Source of the DNA: Gemmatimonadaceae bacterium
GTDB taxonomy: Bacteria > Gemmatimonadota > Gemmatimonadetes > Gemmatimonadales > Gemmatimonadaceae
Length of the DNA stretch: 64,000 bases
Assembly: GCA_019637445.1 (NCBI GenBank)
Contig: JAHBVS010000001.1
Coordinates: 1,647,586 to 1,711,585 of the forward strand
Direction of reading: 5' to 3'
Positions 2,899 through 49,184 of this stretch are shown in pieces. A model generated the notes under the pieces. That model worked only from the letters and a program-made list of their open reading frames with translations, searched no databases and had not been told where the DNA came from. Position numbers and translations under genes: made by a program. Each line of letters starts with the position of its first letter. Positions within the stretch are counted from its first letter, which is position 1.

Positions 2899-2930
2899 AG
2901 TGCCACGTTTTGGCTACGATACAAGAACAA

Positions 2931-2952
2931 GGGGGCGCCGGTCGGCGCCCCC
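2931..2952 (-). terminator. Rho-independent terminator after the cupredoxin gene
   Basis: A perfect 9-bp GC stem (gggggcgcc / ggcgccccc) with a 4-nt ggtc loop is followed, on the minus strand, by a T-rich stretch (ttgttcttgt). It lies 31 bp past the cupredoxin stop codon and upstream of glnN. Confidence 0.75.
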
Positions 2953-2983
2953 TGTTGCAGATAACTCGTTGACTTGCAATGCT

Positions 2984-3310: not shown

Positions 3311-3312
3311 GA

Positions 3313-3858: not shown

Positions 3859-3908
3859 ATCGAGAGGGCTGACTTTGGGAGCGAAGGGAGCGCGCGTTGC
3901 CGCGACGC

Positions 3909-28631: not shown

Positions 28632-30368
28632 CTAGTACCGCCAGCTCCGCACATCCGCCCCCGGCGGCGCCGTCAACAGGATCCGCTCCAACGCCCAGGG
28701 CAGCACCATCTGCGGATACCGCAGCCGCGAGTACGCATTGCTGCGCGTGTGGTCGCCGTTCCAGCAGTGCTCGTCGCGATCACCATAGTCCACCACGGCA
28801 TCCGCCGGCGGGCTGGCCGTGCGCAGGAACTTCTCGGTCTCGTAGACCGCGTTGTTGAGATAGTAGTTGTCCATGTCGCCCACATAGATGCGCAGCTTGC
28901 CGCGCAGCTTGGGACCGAGCGTTGCCCAGTCGCGTTGCAGGATGTGGTTGAGGTCCCAGTTGTCGCGCCAGTGCCGCGCGACCGCGGTGTCGATCACGCC
29001 CGTACGCTTGTCCCAGATCGGCTTTGGGTAGCCATCGGGGCCGACCGGCGAGTAGACGCTCTCCCAGACATCGAACTGGTCGCCCGAGCGCGTGCGTGTG
29101 CCGAGTGCGAGCTCGCGGAGGTTCATATCCTCGACCGTGGCGAGGATGTGTCCGAGATAGTTGCGGTACGCCGGCCGTCGCGTTCGACGGAACGGCCCCT
29201 CCGTGTAGTACGCGTTGCGATCCTCATAGATGTTGATCGACGTGTAGTGGCGGAAGTCGATCGGATCCGGGCAGGCGATCCACGCACCATTGAAGAAGTC
29301 CGGATAGAACATCTGCACGGCCATCGCTTCCCAACCGCCGGTGGACCCGCCGTACGTGAAGCGGGCCCAGCCCTGGCCGATGCCGCGGAAGCGGCGCTCG
29401 ATCTCGGGGATCAGCTCATAGTTGATGGCGTCGCCATACGGGCCGTTGTTCGCGGAGTTCACCGCGTACGAATCGTCGTAGAACGGCGTGGCGTGCTGCA
29501 CCTGCACGACGAGCATGCGAGGGAAACCGGGGCCGGTCCAATCCTTGTAGAGCTGATGCGCCAACTGCTGCTGGATGCGGTTGTAGCCGGCGAGGCTGAA
29601 GCGCGTGGAGTAGTCGGGCGCGAGCGTCGTGTCCGGCGGCGTCTCGCGCCAGCCGTCCACACCCGAGGGGAAATGCCCGTGATTCAGCACCAGCGGATAC
29701 CGCGCATCCGGATGCGAATCGAACCCTTCGGGCAGCAACACCCAGGCGCCGAGGTACATGTCGGTGCCCCAGAACTGCGACAGCCGCTCCGAGCGGATGC
29801 GGACGTACTTCACGTACTTGGTTTCCTTGAGCGCGAAGTCCGCGACCGGCGGGATCTCCTCGCTGAGTTCGAGGCTGATGCGACTGCGCGCGTCGAGGCT
29901 CACCGTCACGGGCTTCGAGTACAGGTTGCCCGGCTTGCGCGCGAACTGCTGCCCTTCCCAGTGGTCCGGCGGCAGCTTGACGGTGAAGCCGTCGCTGCGA
30001 CGGAAGGTCTGGTAGCGGTTCACCAGCGCCTGCACGCGGTAGCGGCCCGGCGGCAGGTCGCGCAGCGACGCCACGGGATAGCCGAAGGCAATCGCGTCGA
30101 CCACCGTTGGCGCACCCGGTCGCCAGCCGTCCACGTCCACGCCGGTCACCTGTGCCGTGCCGACGTTGAAGCTCGAGGCGAAGCGCGGCTCGCCTGTCGT
30201 GTCCGCGGAGATGAACAGCAGTACGCGTCCGTCGATCGGCGCTGCGGAGCGCGCGGCGGGGAAGGTGACGGTGAAGCGCGGGCCCTGGGCGCTGGCGTTC
30301 GGCGATATGCCGAGCGAGGCGGCGAGGAAGAGCAGGGTCGGGACGAGCGAGCGGCGGCGAGTCGACAT
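28632..30368 (-). CDS. Secreted esterase-like protein
   Basis: The 578-residue protein has a signal peptide (about 1-28) followed by a beta-rich N-terminal half and a C-terminal alpha/beta-hydrolase-like half. The candidate nucleophile is Ser in FTYGGSTGGWEA, and the late GDRDEHCWNGDH holds candidate Asp/His residues. The central VLNHGHFPSGV may be the oxyanion-loop strand. It resembles putative esterase-like proteins of unknown substrate. ATG at 30368, monocistronic on the minus strand, downstream of a kinase gene with a 66-bp gap. Confidence 0.72.
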   Translation of the reverse strand: MSTRRRSLVPTLLFLAASLGISPNASAQGPRFTVTFPAARSAAPIDGRVLLFISADTTGEPRFASSFNVGTAQVTGVDVDGWRPGAPTVVDAIAFGYPVASLRDLPPGRYRVQALVNRYQTFRRSDGFTVKLPPDHWEGQQFARKPGNLYSKPVTVSLDARSRISLELSEEIPPVADFALKETKYVKYVRIRSERLSQFWGTDMYLGAWVLLPEGFDSHPDARYPLVLNHGHFPSGVDGWRETPPDTTLAPDYSTRFSLAGYNRIQQQLAHQLYKDWTGPGFPRMLVVQVQHATPFYDDSYAVNSANNGPYGDAINYELIPEIERRFRGIGQGWARFTYGGSTGGWEAMAVQMFYPDFFNGAWIACPDPIDFRHYTSINIYEDRNAYYTEGPFRRTRRPAYRNYLGHILATVEDMNLRELALGTRTRSGDQFDVWESVYSPVGPDGYPKPIWDKRTGVIDTAVARHWRDNWDLNHILQRDWATLGPKLRGKLRIYVGDMDNYYLNNAVYETEKFLRTASPPADAVVDYGDRDEHCWNGDHTRSNAYSRLRYPQMVLPWALERILLTAPPGADVRSWRY

Positions 30369-30434: not shown

Positions 30435-33323
30435 CTAACGCCCCACCGGCCCCAAGTATCGGTCATACCACTCCAACGTCTCCGCCACCCAGCGATTCCG
30501 CGGGAAGTAGTGCCCGCCGTCCCAGATCACCTGCATCTTCTGCGATGCCGGGCTGCCAAGGAACTCGAAGAACGGCCGCGCCGAGGTCTCGAGCGGGAAG
30601 GTGCTGTCGAGCCGGCCGCTCAGCATCAGCACCGGGATGCGAATCCGCGGCAGGAAATTCACGGGATCCGTCTCCGGCCGCTGTTCCTGCGCGGGCAGCC
30701 CCGCCACCAACAGCGACGACACCTTGAAGCGCGACTCCAACGCCAGCGCGATGCCGGCCATCCGCCCGCCCCAGCTGACGCCCATATGCGCGAGGCGCGT
30801 CGTGTCGACGTCGGGGCGCGTCACCACATAGTCGACGCTGCGACGGAACTCGTACATCCATCGGATGGTCTGGTCGCGGCTGGCCACTGAGTTTGTGGGG
30901 ACGTGCCGTTCCATCGGCGTCCCGCGGCCGTAGGTGTGCTCGAGGATCGGGTGTACCACCGCACGGCCGCTGCGCACGAGATAGTCCACGAAGGTCATCG
31001 TGATGTGCTGCGGACTGCTCCCGCTGAACGCCTCGGAGGCCGGCCAGAGTATCGCCGTCTGGTAGGGCGGCGTGCCGCGCTTCGGCAGGAACACGGCGAC
31101 CTGCATCGGACCGCTTTCCCCCTCGATCGGGAAGCTGACATCCTCGCGGATCCAGTCCGCGGCACTCGTGTCGCGCGAAATCAGCGTCGGCTCGATCGGC
31201 GTGCGGTCGTACTCGTAGAGCGCCAGCAGCGCGCGGAAGGTGGCATCGTCCACGGGTCGCGCCCCGCGATAGTCGCGGCGCTGGCCGATGACCTGCGCAC
31301 TCGCGACGGCGAGGCCCGGCATCTCGCGCAGTCGCCGGACGAGGCGAATGCCGTTGATGGCGCTGCGATCGAATTCCGGTTGCGCCACGGCCTCGGTGAA
31401 GAAGTAGCGCGGATCGCTCCAGCCGCCGCCGACGATGAAACGCGTGCCGGGTTCGCGCGGATTCACGAGCCACTCGCGCACGTTGCCGGCCACGTCGAAC
31501 ACGCCGCGCGGGCCGATGCTGCTGCCGCCGCGCACGGGGCCCGAGGACTCGAGGCGTCCGGTGAACGCAATCCAGCGCGCCGCCTCAGGCACTGCCGCGT
31601 TGCTCCACTCCGGCAGCGTCGGCAGCTCCTTGCCGGCGAAGCGCGCGTACGCGCGCGCCTCGTACCAGCTCACGCCGCCTACGGGGAAGTCCTCCTGTCC
31701 CTGTGGCGGTGCGCTGCCTTCCCAGGTGGATGGCCCGCGCCGCCCCGTGCGATCGGTGAAGCGTGCGACCGCGGCCTCCCATGCGAGGGCGCGTCCATTG
31801 AGCGTGATGGTCGAGTCCCACAACTCGCGGCGCGTGTAGCCGCCAGCGTCCACGAAGGCCTTGAACTCGCGATTCGTCACCTCGAGGCGGTCCATCAGGT
31901 ACTCTGACAACTCCGCCGGTTCGGTCGACGCCCCGAAGAGCGCGCTGCGCAACTCGCCGCCCGGCAGGAGCACCATCCCGGTATCGGGATCCGTGATGCG
32001 CTGCAACCGTACGGGATTCGGCAGATCCACGTTCTCGCCACCCATGCGCCCAGACAGCACGGTCTCGCTGCGATACCCAGGCAGCGAGTAGCGATACAGC
32101 CACGGCGTGTTGGGGACTCGCGTCGCTGCGGTGGGTGTCGTGCCGACCGGGACCCAGGTCGTTGTATCGGTGAGCGGGGCACGCGTGACGACTGCACCGG
32201 CGGGCTCGCTGCGGAACTCGCGCAGCGTGGAGATCCCCCGCACGCGCAGCGCCAGCACCGAGTCGCCGGGCACGCGTCGTTCCGCCAACTCTGCAAGGGA
32301 GAATGCCGAGTCGAGCTGATCGGCTTCGAACATCCGGACGAACTCCGGGAAGACCTCCTCGTGCAGCCATCGCGCCCGGCGGTCCTTCACCACGAGGTAC
32401 GACGCGACGGCAATCACCAGCACCGCCGCTGCTGCGGCGATGATGGGGACGCGCGACTTCGCCGCCACGGGCGCGCTCTTCGGGGCCGCTAGCTCACGCA
32501 GCTCGCCGAGCAGTGCCTCGGCGGTCTGCGGCCGTCCGTCTGGACTGCGTGCCAGGCAACGTGCGACGAGAGACACCAGCGCTGGTGAAGCATTCGGTGC
32601 CTTGTCAGCAAGCGACGGCGCGTCCTCGACGATCTTCCGGGCCACCACCTTTTGCCACGAGCCCGAGAAGGGCGGCTCGCCGCTCACCATCTCGAACAGC
32701 ATTGCCCCCAGTGCATAGATGTCGGCGCGGTGGTCCACGTTCGCCTCGCCAGCGGCTTGCTCCGGCGCCATGTAGCCCGGTGTGCCCAGCGACATGCCTT
32801 CACTGGTGAGTGCGGCCACGTCGCGCGCATCACCCAGTGCCTTGGCGATGCCGAAATCCGCCACGATCGCGTGGCCCGCTGAGAGCAGCACGTTCGAGGG
32901 CTTGATGTCGCGGTGCACCACGCCCTGCGCGTGCGCGTGCACCAGCGCCTCGGCCACATCTACAGATACGCGCAGCGCCTCGTCCACCGGCAGCGCGCCG
33001 GTGCGCGTGAGTCGGTCCTGCACCGACTCGCCGGTGGCCACGGGCATCACGTAGTAGAGCAGGGCGCCGTCGAGCGCGGCGCCCGAGTCGAGCAGTGCGA
33101 GAATGTGCGGATGGTTGAGCCGCGCCGTAATGGCGATCTCGCGGAGGAAACGCTCGCTGGTGAGCGACTGTGCGAGGTCCGGCTGCAGGACCTTGATGGC
33201 GACTTCGCGGCCGTGCTTGAGGTCGGTAGCGAGATAGACCGTGGCCATGCCGCCCTGCCCAAGTTCACGCTCGATGCGGTAGCGGTCGGCGAGGGCCTGC
33301 ACGAGGCGGTCCGGAACGGGCAT
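30435..33323 (-). CDS. Ser/Thr kinase fused to FGE-sulfatase and hydrolase domains
   Basis: This 962-residue membrane protein has an active-looking Hanks-type kinase (about 15-275; LGQGGMATVY, Lys44, HRDIKPSN 137-144, DFG 156-158, SLGTPGYMAPEQA). A transmembrane segment (about 292-312) follows. Outside, an FGE-sulfatase/SUMF1 domain (about 445-675; VTNREFKAFVD, FPVGGVSWYEARAYARFAG, GVFDVAGNVREW) leads to a C-terminal alpha/beta-hydrolase-like domain with GVSWGG and a late GHYFP. The periplasmic part may sense or modify a ligand. It is divergent from the kinase at 33377 with a 53-bp spacer. Confidence 0.9.
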   Translation of the reverse strand: MPVPDRLVQALADRYRIERELGQGGMATVYLATDLKHGREVAIKVLQPDLAQSLTSERFLREIAITARLNHPHILALLDSGAALDGALLYYVMPVATGESVQDRLTRTGALPVDEALRVSVDVAEALVHAHAQGVVHRDIKPSNVLLSAGHAIVADFGIAKALGDARDVAALTSEGMSLGTPGYMAPEQAAGEANVDHRADIYALGAMLFEMVSGEPPFSGSWQKVVARKIVEDAPSLADKAPNASPALVSLVARCLARSPDGRPQTAEALLGELRELAAPKSAPVAAKSRVPIIAAAAAVLVIAVASYLVVKDRRARWLHEEVFPEFVRMFEADQLDSAFSLAELAERRVPGDSVLALRVRGISTLREFRSEPAGAVVTRAPLTDTTTWVPVGTTPTAATRVPNTPWLYRYSLPGYRSETVLSGRMGGENVDLPNPVRLQRITDPDTGMVLLPGGELRSALFGASTEPAELSEYLMDRLEVTNREFKAFVDAGGYTRRELWDSTITLNGRALAWEAAVARFTDRTGRRGPSTWEGSAPPQGQEDFPVGGVSWYEARAYARFAGKELPTLPEWSNAAVPEAARWIAFTGRLESSGPVRGGSSIGPRGVFDVAGNVREWLVNPREPGTRFIVGGGWSDPRYFFTEAVAQPEFDRSAINGIRLVRRLREMPGLAVASAQVIGQRRDYRGARPVDDATFRALLALYEYDRTPIEPTLISRDTSAADWIREDVSFPIEGESGPMQVAVFLPKRGTPPYQTAILWPASEAFSGSSPQHITMTFVDYLVRSGRAVVHPILEHTYGRGTPMERHVPTNSVASRDQTIRWMYEFRRSVDYVVTRPDVDTTRLAHMGVSWGGRMAGIALALESRFKVSSLLVAGLPAQEQRPETDPVNFLPRIRIPVLMLSGRLDSTFPLETSARPFFEFLGSPASQKMQVIWDGGHYFPRNRWVAETLEWYDRYLGPVGR

Positions 33324-33376: not shown

Positions 33377-36013
33377 ATGTCCCACTCGACCGAACGCCTC
33401 ACCGCCGCGCTCGACGGACGCTATCGCATCGAACGCCAGTTGGGCGCGGGCGGCATGGCGACCGTTTACCTGGCGCACGACATCAAGCACGACCGTAAAG
33501 TCGCGGTGAAGGTGCTCAAGCCGGAGTTGGCCGCGGTGCTCGGCGCCGAGCGCTTCGTGGTCGAGATCAAGACGACGGCGGCACTGCAGCATCCGCACAT
33601 CCTGCCGCTGTTCGATTCGGGCGAGGCGGACGGCTTCCTCTACTATGTGATGCCGTTCATCGATGGCGAGACGTTGCGCGACCGCTTGAATCGCGAGTCC
33701 CAGCTCGGCGTGGACGAGGCCATTCGGATGACCTGCGACATTGCCGACGCGCTGCACTACGCGCACCAGCACGGGGTCATCCACCGCGACATCAAGCCCG
33801 AGAACATCCTGTTGCAGAACGGCCGGCCGATGGTGGCCGACTTTGGAATTGCCCTGGCGGTATCAGCGGCCGCCGGTGGGCGGATGACGGAGACCGGTCT
33901 CAGTCTCGGCACGCCGCATTACATGTCGCCCGAGCAGGCCACGGCAGAGAAGGAGATCACCGCGCGCAGCGATGTCTATTCGTTGGCGAGCGTGCTGTAC
34001 GAGATGCTGACCGGCAACCCGCCGCACACGGGATCGACCGCGCAGCAGATCATCATGAAGATCATCACCGAGCAAGCGCAGGATGTGACCAGCCTGCGCA
34101 AAACGGTGCCGCCACACGTGGCTGACGCAGTGGCGCAGGCGTTGGAGAAGCTGCCGGCGGACCGTTTTGGCTCGGCGGCGGAGTTCGCGGCGGCGTTGCA
34201 AGGTGGCGGCGGCACGCGTGCGCAGGCCGGCAATCGCACGACGGCGCGCAGGGCAGTGGCTGCGCAGGGCTCCACGCGTTGGCGCGCCATCGCGATTGCG
34301 GCTGCCGCCGTAGCTGTCGTTGCGACCGCTGCGGCGCTGTGGGCGTTGCAGCGCGAGCAGCCCGCCGAGCGTGTGGAGTTCACGTATCGGCCGATCCTGT
34401 CGCGCAACGACCGTCCCTTCGTCAGCATCTCGCGCGACGGCCGTCAGATCTTGGAAGTAGTCCGTGACTCGAACGGCTTGGATCTCGTCGCCACGCGGTC
34501 GCTGGGCTCCGCGACGATGCAGCCGGTGCAAGGCACCGCCGGCGCGCGCGACCCGAGGTTCAGCCTCGACGGCCAGTGGATCCTGTTCCAGTCGGAAGGC
34601 AAGATGAAGCGGGTGCCGGTGGGCGGCGGGCCGGCCAGCGTCGTCATGGAAGCCGGCGTCAACGCCGGCTTCATCGAGCATCCGGACGGGAGTCTGATCT
34701 ACTCGTCGCTGACCACGGGACTAGTGCGCCTGTCTCCCGGTGGACTCACGGCGGATACGCTGACGTCGATTAGTGCGGCCGAGCGAGAGTTCGCGCACTG
34801 GTATCCGCAGGTCCTGCCGGGTGGCGATGCGCTGATCTATACCAGCTACCGCAGTCCGGTGGACGCCTCGCGGATTGAGGCATTGAACCTCAAGACCGGC
34901 GCGCGTAGCGTGCTGGCCACCAACGCCATCCATGGAAAGTTCGTCGCGCCGGACATCCTATTGTTCGCGCGTTCGGCGGCGGTCTTTGCGCAGCGATTCG
35001 ATCCCAAAACGCTCCGCACTCTTGGCGAGGCCGTGCCTGTGGTCGAGGACGTGGCGTGGACGCAGACGGACGGTGTTGCGGCGTATGATGTCTCGGCGAA
35101 CGGCACGCTGGTCTACGTCAAAGGCTCCGAAGCTAGCGTCGCGCGACAGGTAGTCTGGTCCGATCGGAGCGGGCGAACCACGCCATTGCTTCCGGAGGCC
35201 GGGAGCTGGTCCGAGCCGCGGCTTTCGCCAGATGGCCGCTGGATCGCCCTGACGCGTACCGCGCCGACGCGACAGATCTGGCTCTACGACAACGGCCGCG
35301 CGGTGCTGACGCAGCTGACGCGTTTCACCGACGGTGTGGCGTTCTCGCCGGTGTGGGCCTGGGACTCGAAGTCGCTGATCATCGCGCGCGAGGTCCCGCA
35401 GTACAACATCCACCGCCAGCCGATCGATGGGCGCCCGGACGAAGAGTTGGTGAACACGAAGTACGACAAGGTGCCGACGGCCATCTCACGGGACGGGCGG
35501 CAGGTGTTCTACTACGAGGTCATCGCCGATGCGCGGCTGACGGTGGCCACCGTCGGCGACACGGCTTCGCGCAGGTTCAACACCGGCAGCGATGCCTTCA
35601 ACGCCGACCTGACGCCGGACGGCCGCTGGATCGTGCATGACGAATCCGATCGCGCGGGGAACTCGGCGGTCTACGTGCGACTGGCGGATGGCACGGGCGG
35701 CCGTCGACAGGTCTCGTCCGACGGCGGCGACCAGCCGCGCTTCACGCGCGCAGGGCGGGAGATCGTGTACCGCAAGGGCGACGCGATGTACGCGGCGTCG
35801 TTCAATCCTGGGACCGGCGAGATCGGCACCCCCATGCAGTTGTTCCGCGTGAAGGACGGCGGGCGGCTCGCGGGCGGTCGCACGCGCGGGTACGACGTGT
35901 CGCCGGACGGGCAACGGTTCCTGCTGGTGACCCCCGTCGAGCGGCCAGGTGCGGCACCGAACGTGGTGATCACGAACTGGATCGAGGAGCTGGAGCGGAA
36001 GCTGCCGCGGTAG
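33377..36013 (+). CDS. Ser/Thr kinase with PD40 beta-propeller
   Basis: The 878-residue protein has an N-terminal Hanks-type kinase (LGAGGMATVYLAHDIKHDRK, HRDIKPENILL, DFGIALAVSAAAGGRMTETGLSLGTPHYMSPEQ split here for reference: nucleotide about 33430-34160). A transmembrane helix lies near residues 302-324, and about 550 periplasmic residues show repeated TolB/PD40-like blades (SPDGRWIALTR, TPDGRWIVHDES, SPDGQRFLLVTP). All kinase catalytic residues appear present. Ligand and targets are unknown. The ATG is at 33377. Confidence 0.9.
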   Translation: MSHSTERLTAALDGRYRIERQLGAGGMATVYLAHDIKHDRKVAVKVLKPELAAVLGAERFVVEIKTTAALQHPHILPLFDSGEADGFLYYVMPFIDGETLRDRLNRESQLGVDEAIRMTCDIADALHYAHQHGVIHRDIKPENILLQNGRPMVADFGIALAVSAAAGGRMTETGLSLGTPHYMSPEQATAEKEITARSDVYSLASVLYEMLTGNPPHTGSTAQQIIMKIITEQAQDVTSLRKTVPPHVADAVAQALEKLPADRFGSAAEFAAALQGGGGTRAQAGNRTTARRAVAAQGSTRWRAIAIAAAAVAVVATAAALWALQREQPAERVEFTYRPILSRNDRPFVSISRDGRQILEVVRDSNGLDLVATRSLGSATMQPVQGTAGARDPRFSLDGQWILFQSEGKMKRVPVGGGPASVVMEAGVNAGFIEHPDGSLIYSSLTTGLVRLSPGGLTADTLTSISAAEREFAHWYPQVLPGGDALIYTSYRSPVDASRIEALNLKTGARSVLATNAIHGKFVAPDILLFARSAAVFAQRFDPKTLRTLGEAVPVVEDVAWTQTDGVAAYDVSANGTLVYVKGSEASVARQVVWSDRSGRTTPLLPEAGSWSEPRLSPDGRWIALTRTAPTRQIWLYDNGRAVLTQLTRFTDGVAFSPVWAWDSKSLIIAREVPQYNIHRQPIDGRPDEELVNTKYDKVPTAISRDGRQVFYYEVIADARLTVATVGDTASRRFNTGSDAFNADLTPDGRWIVHDESDRAGNSAVYVRLADGTGGRRQVSSDGGDQPRFTRAGREIVYRKGDAMYAASFNPGTGEIGTPMQLFRVKDGGRLAGGRTRGYDVSPDGQRFLLVTPVERPGAAPNVVITNWIEELERKLPR

Positions 36014-36066: not shown

Positions 36067-37245
36067 GTGCTCCGTCTCCTCCTCAACGCCGATCTCCACG
36101 CCCCAGAGCCACGCGGCATCTGCCACGTCCTCGTCGCTGGCGGGCGCATCGCCTGGATCGGCCACGAGCGCCCGAGCTTGGACGCATCACTCGGCGCCGA
36201 GGTCGTCGACCTTGAGGGCCTGCGCCTCGTCCCCGGCCTGATCGACCCGCACGTGCACCTCACGGGCGGCGGCGGTGAGGCCGGCGCGCATACCAAGGTC
36301 CCGCCGCTGCCGCTTTCGCAGTTCACTCGCGGCGGAGTCACTACCGTCGTTGCCGTGCTCGGCACCGACGACGCCACCCGCCATCCACGCGAACTCGTTG
36401 CCGCCGTGCACGGCCTCCGCACCGAGGGACTCTCGGCCTGGAGCTGGACCGCCGGCTACCACCTGCCCCCAGTGACCATCACCGGCAGCGTGCGTGGCGA
36501 CCTGGCGATGATCGACTGCATCATCGGCTGCAAGACCGCCATCAGTGACCACCGCAGCAGCCAGCCAACCCGCGACGATCTGCTGCGCCTCGCCAGCGAG
36601 GTGCACGTCGGCGGCCTGATGACGGGCAAGGCGGGCATCCTGCACCTGCACGTCGGCGACGGCCCCCGCGGGCTCGAACCCATCCGCGACGCGCTCGCGC
36701 ACTCGGAGCTGCCGCCGCGCGTGTTCCACCCCACGCACGTGAACCGGCGACGCGCACTCTTCGAAGAAGCCATCGCCATCGCACGCAGCGGTGTAGCCGT
36801 GGACCTCACGGCGTTCCCCGTGGCGGAGGGCGAGGACGCGTGGAGCGCCGAGGACGCGCTGCAGCGATACCTCGATGCCGGCGCCCCGCCGGAGCGCATC
36901 ACCATCAGCTCCGACGGTGGCGGCTGCCTGCCGACCTTCGATGCCGACGGCCGCGTGGCTTCTATGGATGTGGGATCGCCCGGCGCGCTGGCCTACACGC
37001 TGCGCCGCCTGCTCGACGCCGGCGTGCCGCTCGCGCGGGCGCTGCCGGCCTTCACCAGCAACACGGCGACGTTGCTCCGCCTGCCTCGCAAGGGACAGCT
37101 CACCGCGGATGCCGATGCCGACCTCGTGGTACTCGACCCCAACGGAGGAATTCGGGACGTGATGGCGATGGGAACTTGGATGCTACGCGATGGCCAGCCC
37201 ACACAGCGCGGCACCTTTGAACCGCAGCCCGCGGAGCGCGCGTGA
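36067..37245 (+). CDS. iadA: Beta-aspartyl (isoaspartyl) dipeptidase
   Basis: This 392-residue amidohydrolase matches IadA. Metal ligands are seen in LIDPHVHLTGGGGEAG, the bridging Lys in IIGCKTAISDHRSS, metal His residues in LHLHVGD and FHPTHVNRR, and the final Asp in ISSDGGGCLP. It hydrolyses beta-Asp dipeptides, and here most likely beta-Asp-Arg released from cyanophycin by the next gene. The start is GTG at 36067, and its stop overlaps the cphB start. It is first in the cyanophycin operon. Confidence 0.92.
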   Translation: MLRLLLNADLHAPEPRGICHVLVAGGRIAWIGHERPSLDASLGAEVVDLEGLRLVPGLIDPHVHLTGGGGEAGAHTKVPPLPLSQFTRGGVTTVVAVLGTDDATRHPRELVAAVHGLRTEGLSAWSWTAGYHLPPVTITGSVRGDLAMIDCIIGCKTAISDHRSSQPTRDDLLRLASEVHVGGLMTGKAGILHLHVGDGPRGLEPIRDALAHSELPPRVFHPTHVNRRRALFEEAIAIARSGVAVDLTAFPVAEGEDAWSAEDALQRYLDAGAPPERITISSDGGGCLPTFDADGRVASMDVGSPGALAYTLRRLLDAGVPLARALPAFTSNTATLLRLPRKGQLTADADADLVVLDPNGGIRDVMAMGTWMLRDGQPTQRGTFEPQPAERA

Positions 37246-38084
37246 CGCCCTCACAAACACCGGACGGCGCGACCCGCGGCTGGATCATCCCCATCGGCGG
37301 CGGTGAGGAGAAGGAGAACAACCCGCACATCCTCGAGCGCTTCGTGCAGCTCTGCGGTGGGCGCGACGCCAAGCTCGTCGTAATTCCCACGGCCTCCAAG
37401 CTCGCCGACACCGGCGACCGCTACCGCAGCATCTTCCGCGAACTCGGTGCCGCCGAAGTCGAGGTGATGGACTTCGACACGCGCCGCGACGGCAACGAGC
37501 TCGGACGCGTGGCCGCCATCAAGGCCTGCGACGGCGTCTTCCTCACCGGTGGAAACCAGATGCGCCTTGCGACCACCATCGGCGGCACCGCGGTGGCCAA
37601 GGCGCTGCGCGAACACAATGCCAACGGCGGACACGTCGCGGGCACCAGCGCCGGCGCGAGCTTTCTCAGTGAGCACATGATCGCCTTCGGCGACGACAAC
37701 CGGACGCCGCACGCTGGGTCCGTCACCCTTGCGCCCGGACTCGGCCTCACCAATCGCGTGGTGATCGACCAGCACTTCACGCAGCGGGGCCGGCTCGGCC
37801 GGCTCATCACCGCGCTGGCGTTCAATCCCTTCCTCATTGGGATGGGGATCGACGAGGACACCGCGGCGTTCATCGGCCCTGACCAGACCGTCGAGGTGGA
37901 GGGCAGCGGCACGATCACCATCGTGGACTCGTCCAAGCTCACCTTCTCGTCGATGGACCGCGCCGACGCCGACGACTCCGTAGCGATGCTCAGCCTCATC
38001 ATGCACGTCCTCGTCCGCGGCACCACTTTCAACCTCCACACCCGCATCGCCTCGGCAGGATCGCTCGCGGTGAGCAAGGGTTAG
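37242..38084 (+). CDS. cphB: Cyanophycinase
   Basis: This 280-residue serine exopeptidase of the S51 family cuts cyanophycin to beta-Asp-Arg dipeptides. The nucleophile lies in HVAGTSAGASFLSE. Other family blocks are IIPIGGGEEKEN, VVIPTASK, GVFLTGGNQMRL, VVIDQHFTQRGRLGRL and GIDEDTAAF. No signal peptide is seen, so it acts in the cytoplasm. The GTG start shares four bases (gtga) with the iadA stop codon, implying coupled translation. cphA starts 15 bp downstream. Confidence 0.94.
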   Translation: MTPSQTPDGATRGWIIPIGGGEEKENNPHILERFVQLCGGRDAKLVVIPTASKLADTGDRYRSIFRELGAAEVEVMDFDTRRDGNELGRVAAIKACDGVFLTGGNQMRLATTIGGTAVAKALREHNANGGHVAGTSAGASFLSEHMIAFGDDNRTPHAGSVTLAPGLGLTNRVVIDQHFTQRGRLGRLITALAFNPFLIGMGIDEDTAAFIGPDQTVEVEGSGTITIVDSSKLTFSSMDRADADDSVAMLSLIMHVLVRGTTFNLHTRIASAGSLAVSKG

Positions 38085-38099
38085 CGGCAGGTTCCCACG

Positions 38100-40889
38100 A
38101 TGCGAATCCTCGAACGCTCCGTCTACGTCGGTCCGTCGCTGTACGCGCACTTCCCGGTAATCCGGCTCACGCTGGACCTCGGCGCGCTGGAGCAGTGGCC
38201 CACCAGCCGGCTCGGGGCCCCGTTCATCGAGGGACTGCTCGAGGTGCTGCCCGGGCTGCGCGAGCACGGCTGCTCGTATGGTGAGCCTGGCGGATTCGTC
38301 CGCCGCATGACGGAGGACGAGGGCACCTGGCTAGGCCACGTGCTGGAGCACGTCGCCATCGAGGTGCAGAACATCGCCGGCGTTCCGGTGACCTTCGGCA
38401 AGACCCGCGGCACCGGCGTCGAAGGCCAGTATCACGTCGTCTACGAGTACGAGGAGCGCGACCAAGGTCTCGAGGCCGGCGAGATGGCGATGAAGCTGCT
38501 CGGCTCGCTGCTGCCCGAGGAGATCCGGCCGGAGGGCCTTGTGCCTGCGGACTGGAGCTGGACGGCCGAGCGCGATCAGTTCATCCGCTACGAACAGCGC
38601 CGCGCGCTGGGTCCGAGCACCGCCGCGTTGGTGCACGCCGCCGAGGCGCGCGGCATCCCGTTCATGCGCCTCAACAACCAGTCGTTGGTGCAGCTCGGGC
38701 ACGGGAAGTTCCAGCAACGCATCCATGCCACGGTCACCGGCCGCACGCCGCACATCGCCGTGGAATTGGCGGGTGACAAAGAGGAGACCAACAGAATCCT
38801 CGGGCGCATCGGGTTGCCGGTGCCCAAGCAGGAGCTGGTGCAGAGCGAGGCGGGGGCGCTGCGCGCGGCGCGGCGCATCGGCTTCCCTGTGGTGGTGAAG
38901 CCCTACAACGGCAATCACGGCCGCGCGGTGGCCATCCACCTCACCACCGACGAGCAGGTGCGCGCGGCTTTCCACGCTGCGCAAGAGGTCTCGCGCTCGG
39001 TGATCGTCGAGAGCTTCCAGGTGGGCGACGACCACCGACTCCTCGTGGTGAACGGTACGCTCATCGCTGCCACGCGCCGCACGCCGGGCCACGTCGTCGG
39101 CGATGGCAGCCAGAGCATTGCGCAGTTGGTGGACATCGTGAACGCCGATCCGCGACGCGGCGTCGGCCACGAGAAGGTCCTCACTCGGCTCGCGCTCGAC
39201 GAGCAGGCCCTGGGCTTGCTCGAGCGGAAGGGCTACACGCCCGAGACCGTGCCGCCCGCCGGCGAGACGGTGTACCTGCGCTCCACCGCCAATCTCTCCA
39301 CCGGCGGCACCGCCACCGATGTCACCGACATCATCCATCCCGACAACCGCGAGATGGCCGAGCGCGCCATCAAGGCCATCGGGCTCGATGTGGGCGGCGT
39401 GGACTTCCTCACGCCCGACATCACGGAATCGTACCGCAAGCACGGCGGTGCCATCTGCGAGGTGAACGCCGCGCCTGGCTTCCGGATGCACAGCGCGCCC
39501 AGTGACGGGAAGCCGCGCGATGTCGCCGGACCGGTGATCGACATGCTTTTCCCGCCGGGCACGCCGGCCACCGTGCCCATCGCCGCCGTCACCGGCACCA
39601 ACGGCAAGACGACGACGTCGCGGATGCTCGCGCACATCTGCAAGATGGCCGGCCTCACACCGGGCCTCACCACCACCGACGGTGTGTACATCGACGGCCA
39701 ACGCACCGTCGAGGGCGACATGACCGGCCCCGTCGCGACGCGGCTGGTGCTCGCCGACCCGACCATCGATGTCGCCGTGCTCGAGATTGCGCGCGGCGGC
39801 TTGTTGCGCGCGGGGATGGGCACGCCCTACGTGGACGTGGGCGCCGTGCTCAACGTGCGCTCCGACCATTTGGGGATGAAGGGCATCGACACGCTCGAGG
39901 CCCTGGCCGAGGTCAAGCGCATCATCGTCGAGGTGGCCCGCGACACGGCGGTGCTCAATGCCGATGATCCGCTGGTGCTGCGCATGGCCGATTACACCGA
40001 CGCCAAGCATCTCTGCTACGTGACCACCAACCCCGGCCACGCGCTGGTGCGCGAACACATTCGTGCGGGCGGTCGCGCCGTGTCGTTGGAGAGCGGCGTC
40101 AACGGGCAGATGATCACCATCTACGACAAGGGCGCGCACATCCCGCTGCTGTGGACGCACTTGATCCCGGCGACGATCGAAGGCCGCGCGATGCACAACG
40201 TGCAGAACGCGATGGTCGCCGCCGCGATGGCCTTCTCGATGGGCCTCAAGCTCGAGACCATCCGACAGGGCCTGCGCACCTTCGACACCACGTTCTTCCA
40301 GGCGCCGGGGCGCGCGAACGTCTTCAGCGAGCATCCGTTCAAGGTCATCCTCGACTACGGCCACAACGCGCACGCCATCGAGGCGATGTGCCAACTCGCG
40401 CAGCGCCTGGACGTGAATGGCCGCCGCTTGGTCGTGCTCGCCGGTCCCGGTGATCGCCGTGACGAGGACCTGCGGGAGATCGCCCGAGTGGCCGCCGGCA
40501 AGTTCGACCACTACATCTGCCGCCGCGATGACGGGCTGCGCGGCCGCGCGGGCGACGAAGTCCCGCGCATCATGGCGCAGGCGCTGCGCGATGCCGGCGT
40601 GCCGGACGCGCAGATCACGATCATCCCTGACGAGCAGGAGGCCGTTGATGCCGGCCTGCGGATGGCGCGCGCCGGCGACCTGCTGCTCGTCTTCGGCGAC
40701 GAGATCACGCGCACGTGGAAGCAGATCATCCACTTCCGTCCGGACGGCGCGCAGCGGCCCGTGACGGCCGAGCACGCCATCCCGCGCGTGGTCGAACCCG
40801 CGCCGCCGCCCGAGCCGACGCTCACCGACCTCTCGTCGTTGGTGCGCGACGAGCGCGGCGTGCGCCTCGCGCGCGAGAGCGACGACTGA
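38100..40889 (+). CDS. cphA: Cyanophycin synthetase
   Basis: The 929-residue enzyme polymerises Asp and Arg into multi-L-arginyl-poly-L-aspartate with ATP. An N-terminal domain (about 1-160; ERSVYVGPSLYAHFPV) precedes an ATP-grasp domain (about 210-480; VVKPYNGNHGRAV, CEVNAAPGFRMH) that adds Asp. The Mur-ligase-like domain adds Arg; its P-loop GTNGKTT is at 499-505, with LEIARGGLLRAG and LDYGHNAHAIEAM later. All three domains look intact. It runs directly into a Mur-ligase paralogue. Confidence 0.95.
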   Translation: MRILERSVYVGPSLYAHFPVIRLTLDLGALEQWPTSRLGAPFIEGLLEVLPGLREHGCSYGEPGGFVRRMTEDEGTWLGHVLEHVAIEVQNIAGVPVTFGKTRGTGVEGQYHVVYEYEERDQGLEAGEMAMKLLGSLLPEEIRPEGLVPADWSWTAERDQFIRYEQRRALGPSTAALVHAAEARGIPFMRLNNQSLVQLGHGKFQQRIHATVTGRTPHIAVELAGDKEETNRILGRIGLPVPKQELVQSEAGALRAARRIGFPVVVKPYNGNHGRAVAIHLTTDEQVRAAFHAAQEVSRSVIVESFQVGDDHRLLVVNGTLIAATRRTPGHVVGDGSQSIAQLVDIVNADPRRGVGHEKVLTRLALDEQALGLLERKGYTPETVPPAGETVYLRSTANLSTGGTATDVTDIIHPDNREMAERAIKAIGLDVGGVDFLTPDITESYRKHGGAICEVNAAPGFRMHSAPSDGKPRDVAGPVIDMLFPPGTPATVPIAAVTGTNGKTTTSRMLAHICKMAGLTPGLTTTDGVYIDGQRTVEGDMTGPVATRLVLADPTIDVAVLEIARGGLLRAGMGTPYVDVGAVLNVRSDHLGMKGIDTLEALAEVKRIIVEVARDTAVLNADDPLVLRMADYTDAKHLCYVTTNPGHALVREHIRAGGRAVSLESGVNGQMITIYDKGAHIPLLWTHLIPATIEGRAMHNVQNAMVAAAMAFSMGLKLETIRQGLRTFDTTFFQAPGRANVFSEHPFKVILDYGHNAHAIEAMCQLAQRLDVNGRRLVVLAGPGDRRDEDLREIARVAAGKFDHYICRRDDGLRGRAGDEVPRIMAQALRDAGVPDAQITIIPDEQEAVDAGLRMARAGDLLLVFGDEITRTWKQIIHFRPDGAQRPVTAEHAIPRVVEPAPPPEPTLTDLSSLVRDERGVRLARESDD

Positions 40890-42451
40890 GCGCGCCACCC
40901 ACCGGCGCGCCCTCCGCCAGCGCGCCGCCGCTCTTCACCGACTCCAGGCGCCTGCTCGGCCCGAGTCTCTGGCTCGATGCACCCGGTGTGATCCTCGAGG
41001 CGCCGCGCCCGCACGGCAGCGACGCCGCGCTGCTGCGCGGCTGGGGCGCCGAGGTCACGTGGATGTGCGCCGCACTCGGCTGGACCGACACCGCGCTCAC
41101 CGTGCGCACGCACGCAGCGGGGAGCAGTCTCGCATTCACTGCGCCTCGTGAAGCATTGATGAGCGCCACCAGTCTCAATGAATGGGCGCTGGAGCGCGCG
41201 GCCGAGGCCTGCGACGTGACATACGATCCCGCGTCGCTGGAGGAAGAGCGGCTGCCGTTGGAGCAGACGGCGGCGCTTGCGCGTCTGCGGGAGCTACTCG
41301 ATGCCGAGCGCGAGACACCGCCGGATGACGCCGCGGCGATTGAAGCGCGCGACATCCCAGTTGCCCTCGTCACCGGCTCCAACGGCAAGACCACCACCGT
41401 ACGATTGATCGCCGCCATGCTGCGTGCGGCGGGACACCGCGCGGGCTTCACGTGCACCGACGGCGTGTTCATTGATGGCGAGGCGGTCGAGCGTGGCGAC
41501 TGGAGCGGACCCGCCGGGGCGCGGCGTGTGCTCGAGGACGCGAGCGTGACGGCGGCGGTGTTGGAAAGCGCGCGCGGCGGCCTGCTCCGGCGCGGCCTCG
41601 TGGCACCGCGGGCCGACGTCGCGGTGATCACCAACGTTGCCGCCGATCACTTCGGCGAATACGGCATCGACTCACTGGCCGATATCGCCACCGCCAAGGG
41701 TGTCGTGGCGCACACGCTCTCGGCGCGCGGCACGCTCATACTCGGCGCCGACGATCCCACGCTGCGCGCGCATCCGCCGCACACGGACGCGAAGGTGGAG
41801 TGGTTCGGAAGTGGCGAGCACGCCTCGGGACTGTTGCCGACGCTCGAGGAAATGCCGATCGCGATGGCCGGTCAGGCCGCGTACAACATCGCCAACGCCG
41901 AGGCGGCCGCACGTGCGGCGCGAGCGCTTGGCCTGCCGGATGCGGTGATCACCGAGACCCTGCGGCAGTTCGGCCGCGACAACCGCGACAACCCGGGCCG
42001 GCTGGAGCGCTACGAACTCGACGGCCGCCGCATCTGGCTGGACTACGCGCACAATCCGCACGGGCTCGCGGCGCTGCTGGCGCTGGCGCAGGAGGCGCGC
42101 GGAAGCGGACGGCTGGGGCTGCTCCTTGGTCAGGCGGGCGACCGACCGGACGAATCCCTGCGTGCGCTGGCGCGAACGGCCTGGGCAGCCGCGCCCGACT
42201 GCGTAATGCTGCAGGAGATGACGCACTACCTACGCGGGCGCGCGCCCGGCGAGGTGCCCGCGATCCTGCGCGATGAGCTGCTGCGCAGTGGGGCGCGTGA
42301 GGAGCAGGTGCTGCTCGGCGGAAGCGAGGTGGAGGCCGCGGAGGCGCTGTTGGCGTGGAGCGCGCCGGGGGACCTGCTCGTGATGCCCGTGCACGCCTTG
42401 GAGGAGCGCGAGGTGCTTCGGCGCCGGATTGGGGTTCGGGCCGACGGGTAG
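40886..42451 (+). CDS. Mur-ligase-type paralogue of cyanophycin synthetase
   Basis: This protein of about 521 residues resembles the Mur-ligase half of CphA but has no ATP-grasp domain. The P-loop GSNGKTT lies at about 164-170. LESARGGLLRRG, ITNVAADHFGEYGI and LDYAHNPHGLAAL correspond to the CphA segments. The substrate is probably a peptide or cyanophycin-like chain, but this is inferred from context. The start is unclear: no ATG or GTG lies near, and a CTG at 40886 overlaps the cphA stop (ctga), which would fit coupled translation. The upstream open frame is antisense-like shadow of cphA. Confidence 0.82.
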   Translation: MSAPPTGAPSASAPPLFTDSRRLLGPSLWLDAPGVILEAPRPHGSDAALLRGWGAEVTWMCAALGWTDTALTVRTHAAGSSLAFTAPREALMSATSLNEWALERAAEACDVTYDPASLEEERLPLEQTAALARLRELLDAERETPPDDAAAIEARDIPVALVTGSNGKTTTVRLIAAMLRAAGHRAGFTCTDGVFIDGEAVERGDWSGPAGARRVLEDASVTAAVLESARGGLLRRGLVAPRADVAVITNVAADHFGEYGIDSLADIATAKGVVAHTLSARGTLILGADDPTLRAHPPHTDAKVEWFGSGEHASGLLPTLEEMPIAMAGQAAYNIANAEAAARAARALGLPDAVITETLRQFGRDNRDNPGRLERYELDGRRIWLDYAHNPHGLAALLALAQEARGSGRLGLLLGQAGDRPDESLRALARTAWAAAPDCVMLQEMTHYLRGRAPGEVPAILRDELLRSGAREEQVLLGGSEVEAAEALLAWSAPGDLLVMPVHALEEREVLRRRIGVRADG

Positions 42452-42464: not shown

Positions 42465-45161
42465 TCAGCGGCGCGGCACCAGCCGCTTGAGCTCCTCAAA
42501 GAAGTTCTCCACGACGATCAGCTCCAGCGGCGTGTTCCCGGCAACGTTGTCCTGCGCCAGCATCACGAAGCGCCTGCCGTCCGGCGACACGCCATACGCG
42601 CGCTGCTGCTGGTCCGTCGCGTACGCCGTCGCGTCGAACAGCACGCGCTGCAGCCCCGTCGGCGGGGCGCCGCCGCCCGCGGACACCGCCACCGCCACCA
42701 TCTCGCCCTTGCCGTTCCTATAGAAGAGCTCGCGTCCGTTCGGGGCCCAGAGCGGTTCGGTGCCGCCATCGACGGAGATCAGCCACTTGCCGGTCGAGAC
42801 GTCAGGGAACGGGCGGACATAGACCTCGTAGCGGCCAGTTTCGGAAGACGCATAGGCGACCCAACGCCCGTCGGGCGAGACCGTCACCGAGTTCTCGGGG
42901 TGGATGCTGTTGGCGAGGATGACCGGCGTCGTGTCGCCCACCGTGCGGCGCGCATAGAGATTGGCGGCGGTCCCCCCTCCCGCGCGGTACACGAGCCAGG
43001 CGCCGTCGTTGGTGAGGAGCGCCTCCTGCACCGCCTGCTCCTCGCCCATCGAGGGTGGGAAGCGCAGGATCGGCTCGCTGTTCCCTGTGCCGTCGGCCCG
43101 TCGCGCGAACGCAGATCGGATGCCGTCGGTCTGGCTGATGAACAGGATGCGGCGTCCGTCCGGCGACCATGAGGGTCGGATATCGAGGCCGCCCTCGAAC
43201 GTGAGTTTCGAGGCGTTGCCGGACTGGTTCAGGCGCCGCACCCAAAGATTGGTCACGCCGGCGTCCTGAATTGCGATGGCGAGTTGTGAACCGTCCGGCG
43301 AGACGGACACATGACTGGCGCGCGGTGCCCATCCCTCGGCGATGGGCGATGCCTTGCCATCGCGGTCTACCCAGACGGGTGCGCCGCCGTCGGAGGCGCC
43401 GGCGCCTGTCGTGTACACCAGCGTTCCATCCGAGGAGATGGCGAGGTCAGGCACGGCGAGGTTGCCGCGTAGCTCGACGTCACGGGCGAGCACCACCGGT
43501 TCGCCGGAGACCGTCATCTCGTCCTGGTCGAACGCGACTGCCATCAATGCGCGGTCCGCCGTCACGTAGAGCAGGTGGCCAGTCTCCGCGTAGCGCGCGT
43601 AGACGCCGCGGACCAGCACCTTGTGGGCTCCGGTCGCCGTGGAGGCAACGGCAATCACTCGCGACGCGACACCACCCTCGCCCTGGATCACCGTAAAGAG
43701 CACCCCTTCGCCATTTGGCAGCGCGGACGGCGCGATGTGGTCGCGTTCCCCGCGCGCCGAATCCAGCTGCGTGAACCATTCCGTCTTGCCACCCTCCGCG
43801 ACTGACACGCGGACGAGCGAGACCGGGCCGAGCCCGTCGGCGTAGATGAACCCATCGGGGCTCCACGTCGCGCCCGCCGCTCCGACCCGGGCGTCGTCCA
43901 GCACCATCGGCGGGCCGCCACTGAGCGTCATGAGATGCAGCCCGCTACTCCGCTCAAACCCAATCCTGCTTCCGTCCGGGGAGAAGAACGGCGCCACCGG
44001 ATTCTCGGTGCCGGCGAGTGCGCGGCTCTCCAGCGCGTTCCGCTCGCGCACCCACAGGTTGACCTGCGGCGGCACGCCACCGGTGTAGACGATCCGCGAT
44101 CCGTCCGGCGACAGTGCCAGGCGCAGCCATAGGCCGGTGATGCGGCCGTCATCTGGCAGTCGGATGCTGTACCGAGAGACCGGCTGCGAAGGCGCGGGGC
44201 GAGTCAGCAACCAGGCGGCAACTCCTCCGACCAACACCAGGGCGGCAGCCAGGCTGGTCGCGAGACGATTCAACTGCCAGGGCGCGGCGGAACGCATTCC
44301 AGCAGCTGTGCGAGTCGCAACAGTGAACGTCGTGTTCCCGAGTGCCTCGGCGAATGCTTGCGCCGAGGCAAAGCGGTCCGCCGGCAGCTTGGCCAGCGCC
44401 TTCTCCAACGCCGCTGCGACATTCTCGGGTACAGCACTCCGCAGTTCCGTCACCGGCTGCGCCCGCTCGGCGATGATCTTCATGATGATCTGCTGCGCGC
44501 TGCCGCCCGTGTGCGGCGGCTCGCCGGCGAGCATCTCGTAGCACACGCTGGCCAGCGAGTACACGTCGCTGCGCGCGGTAATCGACTTGTCAGCGGTCGC
44601 CTGCTCCGGCGACATGTAGTGCGGCGTGCCGAGACTGAGCCCGGTCTCCGTCATGCGCCCGCCGGCCGCCGCGCTGACCGCGAGCGCGATGCCGAAGTCC
44701 GCGACCATCGGGCGTCCGCCCTGCAGAAGAATGTTCTCCGGCTTGATGTCGCGGTGGATGACGCCGCGGCTGTGCGCGTAGTGGAGGGCGTCGGCGATCT
44801 CTCGCGTGATGCGGATGGCCTCGTCCACCCCGAGTTGCGTCTCGCGGTTGAGCCGGTCGCGGAGCGTCTCGCCGTCGATGAACGGCATCACATAGAACAG
44901 GAAGCCGTCGGCCTCGCCGGAGTCGAAGAGCGGCAGGATGTGCGGATGCGACAGCGCCGCGGTGGTCTTGATCTCGACCACGAAGCGTTCGGCGCCCAGC
45001 ACGGCGGCCAGCTCCGGCTTGAGGACCTTGAGGGCAACCTTGCGGTCGTGCTTGAGGTCCTCGGCCAGGTACACGGTGGCCATGCCGCCGGCGCCGAGTT
45101 CGCGCTCGATGCGGTAGCGGTCGGCCAGCGCGGCCACGAGACGGCTGGGAATTTCAGGCAT
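42465..45161 (-). CDS. Ser/Thr kinase with PD40 beta-propeller
   Basis: This 898-residue membrane kinase is closely similar to the one at 33377. The kinase domain has LGAGGMATVYLAEDLKHD, HRDIKPENILL, DFGIAL and a GLSLGTPHYMSPEQ activation loop. The helix LATSLAAALVLVGGVAAWLL crosses the membrane, and the periplasmic PD40 blades (LSPDGSRIVYTGG, SPDGSQLAIAI, SPDGRWVAYASS) form a propeller. ATG at 45161 is chosen because MPEIPSRLVAALADRYRIE matches the other kinases; the open frame runs further to 45293 with no similarity. It is convergent with the Mur-ligase gene. Confidence 0.9.
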   Translation of the reverse strand: MPEIPSRLVAALADRYRIERELGAGGMATVYLAEDLKHDRKVALKVLKPELAAVLGAERFVVEIKTTAALSHPHILPLFDSGEADGFLFYVMPFIDGETLRDRLNRETQLGVDEAIRITREIADALHYAHSRGVIHRDIKPENILLQGGRPMVADFGIALAVSAAAGGRMTETGLSLGTPHYMSPEQATADKSITARSDVYSLASVCYEMLAGEPPHTGGSAQQIIMKIIAERAQPVTELRSAVPENVAAALEKALAKLPADRFASAQAFAEALGNTTFTVATRTAAGMRSAAPWQLNRLATSLAAALVLVGGVAAWLLTRPAPSQPVSRYSIRLPDDGRITGLWLRLALSPDGSRIVYTGGVPPQVNLWVRERNALESRALAGTENPVAPFFSPDGSRIGFERSSGLHLMTLSGGPPMVLDDARVGAAGATWSPDGFIYADGLGPVSLVRVSVAEGGKTEWFTQLDSARGERDHIAPSALPNGEGVLFTVIQGEGGVASRVIAVASTATGAHKVLVRGVYARYAETGHLLYVTADRALMAVAFDQDEMTVSGEPVVLARDVELRGNLAVPDLAISSDGTLVYTTGAGASDGGAPVWVDRDGKASPIAEGWAPRASHVSVSPDGSQLAIAIQDAGVTNLWVRRLNQSGNASKLTFEGGLDIRPSWSPDGRRILFISQTDGIRSAFARRADGTGNSEPILRFPPSMGEEQAVQEALLTNDGAWLVYRAGGGTAANLYARRTVGDTTPVILANSIHPENSVTVSPDGRWVAYASSETGRYEVYVRPFPDVSTGKWLISVDGGTEPLWAPNGRELFYRNGKGEMVAVAVSAGGGAPPTGLQRVLFDATAYATDQQQRAYGVSPDGRRFVMLAQDNVAGNTPLELIVVENFFEELKRLVPRR

Positions 45162-45247
45162 CGCGGAAAAAGATGCAGCGCCTTCGGGCGGGCCGCGACC
45201 AGCGGGCGCAGCCGACCCGCGCGGCTCGAAGCCCGATACAATGTCAG

Positions 45248-45286
45248 TACATATGTATTGACAAAGGGATCTTTGATTTGTACGCT
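45248..45286 (+). promoter_or_regulatory. Promoter and operator of the RHH/nucleotidyltransferase pair
   Basis: A perfect TTGACA -35 box (45258-45263) is 17 bp from a weaker TACGCT -10 box (45281-45286). Transcription would start at about 45292-45294, which is the ATG itself, so the mRNA may be leaderless. A perfect palindrome tacatatgta (45248-45257) directly abuts the -35 box and is a likely operator for autoregulation. Confidence 0.6.
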
Positions 45287-45291
45287 CCAGC

Positions 45292-45783
45292 ATGCCCGCC
45301 CGGACCCTTCAGCTGCAGATCCGCGTGACCCCCCAGCAGAAGGCCGCGTTGCGCGCCCGCGCCCGCGCCGCCGGCGTCGGCATGTCGGAGTACGTATTGG
45401 CGCGTGTGCTGCCGGAGTCGCGCGATCGCTTCCGCGCGCTGGTCGCCGCCCTCGCCAACACCGCGGACGCGCGTGCGGTGCTAGCCGAGTTGAACGAAAT
45501 GTTGACCGGACTGTCGGCCAGTGAGTTGGCAGCAGCCGTCGAGCAGGCCGAGCTGCGCGGTCTCTCGCTGTACCTCGCCAACTACCTGGCGGCGATGGTG
45601 GAGAAGGCCGCCGACCGCAAGCGCGTGATGCCACCGGCGTGGACGCGACGCGTCGAACCGCTCGAGTCGCCGCACTTCGCCAGCTCGCTCGTGAGTCTTC
45701 GCCCCCACCTGCTCCGCAACGCCCCGGTGCCCTTCAAGCGTCGCAACATCTTCGTGGACGCCAGCATCGGCGATCGGGTCTGA
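45292..45783 (+). CDS. Ribbon-helix-helix-like regulator, possible antitoxin
   Basis: The 163-residue protein opens with a ribbon-helix-helix-like segment: a basic strand (TLQLQIRVTPQQKAALRARA) and a second helix (GVGMSEYVLARVL), as in relaxosome or antitoxin RHH proteins. The following 110 residues are helical and unrecognised. It lies three bp before a nucleotidyltransferase gene. Its promoter has a palindrome over the -35 box. The size and pairing fit a toxin-antitoxin-like module, but this is inference. Confidence 0.65.
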   Translation: MPARTLQLQIRVTPQQKAALRARARAAGVGMSEYVLARVLPESRDRFRALVAALANTADARAVLAELNEMLTGLSASELAAAVEQAELRGLSLYLANYLAAMVEKAADRKRVMPPAWTRRVEPLESPHFASSLVSLRPHLLRNAPVPFKRRNIFVDASIGDRV

Positions 45784-48939: not shown

Positions 48940-49184
48940 TGGGAGAAGGTCGCGAAGGGACGTTGGGTTCGCCACTGACCCTGGGACCCGGTCCCACAGG
49001 CGGCCCACATCAAGGACGCAGTTCCGAAATCGCCCGCCTAGGTCAAGCGAGTTGCGAGCAGACGGTCCGAACCGAAGAATTCAACAGCGCGAGTCGCACT
49101 CTGTGGAACACGATGCGCGGCTCTCAAGCACTTCACGCGACGTCGCTCGAGTGATTTGAGGACGTCCCAACTAGGTGAGCTCGA

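Follow-up and report, generated by a model that had tools for sequence, protein, structure and literature searches.

A conserved outside module with a predicted esterase, fused to exchangeable signalling outputs, in a Gemmatimonadaceae bacterium

A single open reading frame of 962 residues fills positions 30435-33323 on the minus strand (ATG start, 33323..30435) of the 64,000-nucleotide stretch of Gemmatimonadaceae DNA analyzed here (the window). It joins a Hanks-type kinase to an outside module with an FGE-like and a hydrolase domain, and across relatives the inside output domain has been exchanged on this conserved outside module. From sequence and modelled structure, we favour by a modest degree the reading that the protein is a one-piece transmembrane receptor, with a putatively competent esterase module as its sensory half. 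The original prediction had placed a kinase, one membrane helix, a SUMF1-like domain and a hydrolase on one polypeptide; Pfam, a transmembrane segment at residues 292-312 and the structure models agree with it, its coordinates were right, and the gene lies on the minus strand. The features of the gene are as follows.

30435..33323, minus strand: whole open reading frame, in the order kinase, transmembrane segment, stalk, PEGA-like, FGE-like and hydrolase (open reading frame, Pfam, model)
32511..33281, minus strand: Hanks Ser/Thr kinase domain, residues 15-271 (Pfam, fold, motifs)
32388..32450, minus strand: single transmembrane segment, residues 292-312 (hydrophobic sequence; helix 294-333 in the model)
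32226..32318, minus strand: predicted helical juxtamembrane stalk, residues 336-366 (model)
32034..32225, minus strand: PEGA-like beta domain, residues 367-430 (model, and Pfam PEGA in relatives)
31332..31982, minus strand: FGE/EgtB-like domain, residues 448-664, copper-site cysteines absent, first Cys column at D637 (Pfam, profile alignment, fold)
30450..31274, minus strand: alpha/beta hydrolase, residues 684-958, with a CE7 acetyl-xylan-esterase-like fold (model, fold)
30774..30776, minus strand: predicted nucleophile S850 (GVSWGG), AGC codon (alignment)
30606..30608, minus strand: predicted acid D906 (alignment)
30510..30512, minus strand: predicted base H938 (alignment)

In the window protein Pfam recognized Pkinase (residues 15-271, 7.6e-50), FGE-sulfatase (PF03781, 448-577, 1.5e-22) and, weakly yet above the cut-off, Peptidase_S9 (826-868, 6.9e-6); further alpha/beta-hydrolase families fell below the cut-off. 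PEGA went uncalled there and exceeded the cut-off in relatives such as L071, L068, L115, L149 and L119. AlphaFold modelled the full 962 residues with a pLDDT of 92.1 and a pTM of 0.70. Because a fold comparison with this whole-protein model listed kinases alone, the outside module was modelled and compared separately. Residues 366-962, which we infer to be the part of this membrane protein lying outside the cytoplasm, gave a confident fold (pLDDT 95.1, pTM 0.92), so the PEGA-like, FGE-like and hydrolase domains are predicted to pack as a single unit; structure prediction of the periplasmic part was one of the checks that the original prediction had proposed. Relatives with the same domain order, at 29-60% identity, occur across many genomes, which confirms that the open reading frame and its layout are genuine and not a product of chance.

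The module is widespread. Its outside part was matched at E <= 0.001 in 244 of 395 genomes of the window's phylum, many of these being short FGE-like matches; by hand count, about 65 of the 395 have a match with E < 1e-30 that reaches the end of the hydrolase. A scan of named genomes with two FGE-like peptide patterns returned at least 80 loci and placed the module under at least 14 phylum-level names, although phylum shares among these are not frequencies, since the scan used two patterns and the shares cover just the 80 loci listed. Named isolates that carry the module include Povalibacter uvarum DSM 26723 (L163) and Eudoraea adriatica DSM 19308 (L166); the relatives are mostly metagenome bins, with gene outlines drawn as mechanical open reading frames. 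The original prediction had also proposed to search other genomes for this domain order; contrary to its view of the C-terminal hydrolase as less usual, the same order is common within the family. The distribution is patchy: within the same genus, one of 12 other genomes among the matches listed (G205) has the module, in two pieces of one shortened frame. The G205 protein (L084, 527 aa) has neither an in-frame kinase nor part of the FGE/hydrolase junction and is apparently decaying. In a plasmid collection 31 records matched, none to 80% of the query, and the 10 listed among them match the FGE-like part alone.

Comparisons among relatives drew on two samples. An alignment of 82 rows was made from 90 open reading frames of the phylum minus eight (L027 and L084-L090). 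The named loci numbered 80, of which L169 and L171 had no match to the module and were dropped. In 152 of 168 proteins the sequence extended to the C-terminal end of the module; removal of 8 near-copies left 144, and removal of 3 short sequences left 141 non-redundant modules.

These 141 modules share one outside part and six kinds of inside part. The inside part is a kinase in 92, a three-TM anchor in 23, a TIR or TIR-like domain in four, a class III cyclase in three, a winged helix in three, a TM segment only in three, a BTAD domain in two, a kinase with a winged helix in one and three TM segments with a kinase in one; it is cut or unassigned in the remaining nine. Pfam confirmed Guanylate_cyc in three proteins (L132, L149, L166), Trans_reg_C in four (L153, L157, L163, L115), BTAD in two (L037, L038) and TIR_2 in one (L139). 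The other three of the four TIR labels (L130, L131 and L134) were not called as TIR by Pfam, and the inside domain of L131 had no PADLOC match, with weak TIR matches only in NCBIfam and PDB sequences. By eye, the N-termini of these three Bacteroidota proteins look TIR-like (FISYR) and perhaps represent a divergent TIR family.

A FastTree phylogeny of all 141 rows required 25 output changes. As this tree joins long branches, the analysis was repeated as a more careful tree of the FGE and hydrolase part, with 54 of the 141 rows hand-chosen for diversity and the TM and stalk columns removed. On the careful tree, whose deep branches are without resolution and whose bootstrap had not settled, 21 output changes were required; the kinase label changed 14-16 times over the bootstraps, and at least six times on starred branches alone. 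Close neighbors with unlike outputs include L051 (kinase) with L060 (three-TM) and L071 (kinase) with L075 (TM only), each pair at 100/100, and a single clade, also at 100/100, holds TIR-like, TIR and cyclase members. The inside output domain has thus been exchanged on a conserved outside module. Unrelated signalling outputs swapped on one outside module are the pattern expected of an input module.

The hydrolase has the layout of an alpha/beta-hydrolase serine hydrolase. In the model, strand 839-849 and helix 851-862 flank S850 at the nucleophile elbow, D906 follows strand 898-903 and H938 follows strand 929-934. The original prediction had proposed to check for an intact hydrolase triad, and these three residues are in place; the corresponding positions read Ser-Asp-His in 139 of the 141 modules, irrespective of output. 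One of the two exceptions, L124, looks frameshifted in the C-terminal residues before the His. The other, L119 (positions 980-4675, plus strand), reads N, D, Q at the triad in a complete protein that keeps intact kinase motifs and both the kinase and FGE-like domains, and it is possibly a natural binding-only receptor. The best fold match was to the CE7 family of carbohydrate esterases, comprising acetyl-xylan esterases and cephalosporin C deacetylases (5fdf; Z 25.7, rmsd 2.8, 263 residues aligned, 16% identity), with other esterases, lipases and S9 peptidases close behind (Z 21-23). In sequence comparison, PET46 (8b4u) and an MHETase come closest among solved chains. The window hydrolase thus has its fold and Ser-Asp-His residues in common with CE7 enzymes, whereas the CE7 entries are stand-alone esterases and the window hydrolase is fused and has low sequence identity to them. 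We suggest, from residues and fold, that the hydrolase is probably catalytically competent and cleaves esters.

In the FGE-like domain, by contrast with the hydrolase, the catalytic site has been lost. Its fold is supported by the PF03781 match, by profile matches to solved FGEs and by a best fold match to the FGE-like half of EgtB (6o6m; Z 22.1, rmsd 2.3, 192 residues aligned, 30% identity). The sole cysteine of the whole window protein is C256, in the kinase. In a profile alignment to the solved FGE 6s07, the first cysteine of the CxxxxC stretch, a pair that we take to be the copper ligands of FGE, falls at D637; among the 141 relatives this column holds Asp in 104 and Glu in 28. The original prediction had also proposed to look for the copper-binding cysteine pair: it is absent here, and none of the 141 relatives has two cysteines within residues 630-660. 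With no cysteine in the domain and no pair at this site in any relative, the domain cannot be a copper FGE (FGE/SUMF1). A sulfoxide synthase of the EgtB type was rejected as well, since Pfam finds no DinB-like domain with its iron-binding His in the window protein, and what lies upstream of the FGE-like domain is the PEGA-like domain, the TM segment and the kinase. EgtB and OvoA share the FGE-like fold; unlike them, the module has no DinB iron domain, is presumably outside the cytoplasm and is fused to a hydrolase and a signalling output. Residues such as D524, W534, E555, N614 and E617 are invariant in all 152 proteins, and so many invariant residues argue that the domain is maintained for something. 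Having lost its copper site, it most likely serves as a binding or scaffold surface. By its own terms the original prediction would have been refuted had both periplasmic domains lost their catalytic residues; the FGE-like domain has lost them, and the hydrolase keeps its own. Of its proposed coupling between outside and inside, the kinase joined to a hydrolase with an intact triad stands, and substrate modification by the FGE domain, which has no cysteine, falls.

The inside half of the window protein has the marks of a Hanks-type transmembrane receptor kinase: the catalytic residues K44, D139 (HRD) and D156 (DFG) are all present, and a single TM helix leads to a domain that probably lies outside. 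Across the 54 kinase-bearing rows of the 82-row alignment both aspartates are conserved in all 54, and the lysine in 52, the other two rows having gaps. The closest fold is PknB (5u94; Z 32.4, rmsd 2.5, 258 residues aligned). The protein resembles the PASTA receptor kinases, of which M. tuberculosis PknB is one, in kinase fold, single TM helix and outside sensor; the outside part of PknB consists of PASTA repeats, whereas that of the window protein is a module of enzyme folds. Pfam found no PASTA repeats in the window protein, and a match to NF033483 is confined to the kinase part (273 bits, below the cut-off of 450). A role in anti-phage defence was considered and rejected: the 25 PADLOC matches listed, of 33, are to the kinase domain (positions 2-319, best PD-T4-6) and do not touch the outside module, which shows that they mark a Hanks kinase rather than a defence system.

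Among the named-scan loci listed, four of the 30 full kinase-type loci with more than 1 kb of upstream sequence are directly preceded, on the same strand, by an ECF sigma gene (PF07638). So is L150, a locus in which the contig end truncates the module. Among the window open reading frames examined, none beside the window gene is an ECF gene. The arrangement in some relatives, a transmembrane Hanks kinase with an ECF gene, recalls the ECF43 sigma factor-kinase pairs PknS/EcfK and PknT/EcfP; in contrast to those, the window gene has no adjoining ECF gene, and the relatives' sigma genes are identified here by PF07638. A precedent for signalling from a kinase to an ECF factor is described in PMC13147305, where EcfK is phosphorylated by PknS, a kinase whose autophosphorylation is restrained by its own periplasmic region.

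Beside the module, no gene related to metabolism or to a ligand recurs clearly, in a comparison where most phylum loci had flanks of 1.5 kb only; this speaks against the receptor reading. On the same strand, 66 bp downstream of the window gene, positions 28632-30368 (minus strand) encode a 578-aa, probably secreted protein with a GGSTGG motif and a sub-threshold PF00756 match, possibly of an esterase family so far unrecognized. By tblastn this esterase-like gene (30368..28632) lies beside no other member among the loci compared (again mostly with 1.5-kb flanks), so an operon with it was rejected and we do not count it as part of the module. Three more Hanks kinases lie nearby (33377-36013, plus strand; 42465-45293 and 46315-49008, both minus strand) and make up a local receptor-kinase cluster. 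Their outside parts are TolB/PD40-like propellers, recognized by Pfam and NCBIfam at 33377 and by eye at 42465 and 46315, and they show the converse of output exchange, in which a single output is joined to many inputs. Positions 36067-42451 (plus strand) hold a cyanophycin-type cluster, with an amidohydrolase (iso-aspartyl dipeptidase-like by eye), a peptidase S51 (cyanophycinase-like), a cyanophycin synthetase (PF18921 and Mur ligase domains) and, by eye, a second Mur-ligase-like gene.

Output exchange together with a nearly universal triad led us to propose an enzyme that acts as a receptor. The rigid module of PEGA-like, FGE/EgtB-like and CE7-like esterase domains would recognize, and probably hydrolyze, an ester-bearing ligand outside the cytoplasm. 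The ligand ester would enter the esterase, perhaps with the FGE-like domain holding it, and occupancy or turnover of the esterase would alter the module or its dimerization. The stalk and the single TM helix would relay this change to the Hanks kinase. The kinase would in turn phosphorylate regulators, perhaps the ECF sigma factor that some relatives encode next door. An active esterase, an ester as its ligand, control of the kinase by binding or turnover, and the identity of the kinase target are what we infer here; from the fold alone, the ligand may perhaps be an ester of a polysaccharide. The six kinds of output, the 21 changes on the tree, the conserved triad, the single packed unit, the ECF neighbors and L119 all speak for a receptor.

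Much the same residues would serve a membrane-anchored surface hydrolase with a metabolic role, whose inside domain anchors the enzyme or sets its level or place and sends no inward signal. Near-absolute triad conservation is equally expected of such a plain enzyme, the CE7-like fold suits it, and 26 of the 141 modules, which have a bare TM or three-TM anchor in place of a recognized output and which a pure receptor leaves unexplained unless it has a partner, fit it directly. We nevertheless regard it as unlikely: the inside partners are unrelated signalling outputs (kinase, cyclase, winged helix, BTAD, TIR), as for input modules, the kinase residues are intact, and L119 has given up the triad and kept the rest. 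That same protein, which has lost the triad Ser and His and nothing else, favours a receptor that only binds, with the alpha/beta hydrolase as a ligand pocket and catalysis incidental. Hydrolase-fold hormone receptors are a precedent, and FGE-like folds have been proposed as sensors elsewhere, as FGE/C-lectin domains in DGR systems (PMC10907252). Retention of the triad in 139 of 141 very diverged sequences makes this quite doubtful, since it implies a need for catalysis, or for the nucleophile at the least, in nearly every member; for the enzyme-receptor that we prefer, it suggests an input that includes turnover or acylation.

Chance fusion is a very improbable account. Promiscuous shuffling or mis-assembly, giving accidental fusions with no common function, might be suspected where relatives come mostly from metagenome bins with mechanically drawn gene outlines, but the in-frame fusions recur in many genomes, including the isolates L163 and L166, and the invariant residues span all outputs. 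Slighter still is the chance that the FGE-like domain is an oxidase making formylglycine or another modification, with the hydrolase as an auxiliary. The Pfam FGE-sulfatase match invites that idea, and the window's own genome has sulfatase-family matches at seven places, with the window gene as its only FGE-domain match. It is already contradicted by a domain free of cysteine, by a Cys column that is Asp or Glu in 132 of the 141 relatives, and by a closest fold in the FGE-like half of EgtB with no iron-carrying DinB by Pfam.

Fusions of Ser/Thr kinases to a C-terminal DUF323/FGE-sulfatase domain are known, as the original prediction had said, from Chlamydiae (PMC1262709) and cyanobacteria (PMC2176072). 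Those proteins share with ours a Hanks kinase and a C-terminal FGE-like domain; neither report names a hydrolase after the FGE domain (the term occurs 0 times in either text), and here PEGA-like, FGE-like and esterase domains form one module that is also found without a kinase. The original prediction had held that an architecture both common and already characterized would count against it: this one is common, and we found no characterization in the open-access PMC literature. Nor did we find there a description of the three-part module or its output exchange, and the available texts of PMC13147305, PMC10907252, PMC8436480, PMC1262709 and PMC2176072 describe neither kinase-FGE-hydrolase proteins nor output exchange. 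Modular transmembrane receptors are well known; what appears to be new is the proposed use of an apparently active esterase as the input, as judged from residues and models.

To our knowledge, no ligand is known for most of the outside domains that bacterial Hanks kinases carry. The outside domain of the window protein is a predicted enzyme whose chemistry can be tested, so the signal could be uncovered with activity-based probes and ester libraries. The same module sits on kinases, cyclases and DNA-binding domains, and identifying the ligand of one member would therefore be informative for all of them, in phyla where signalling has been little studied (Gemmatimonadota, Acidobacteriota, Planctomycetota and Bacteroidota). 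It is misleading to annotate such proteins as enzymes that generate formylglycine or modify sulfatases. We put forward tentatively, and with less assurance than our reading of the window protein itself, that they may represent a new class of bacterial enzyme-receptor: the active esterase of one conserved module would sense an ester on the outside, by hydrolyzing it or by becoming acylated, and would drive the fused output. If so, protein phosphorylation, cyclic-nucleotide synthesis, TIR signalling and direct DNA binding would all be driven in this way.
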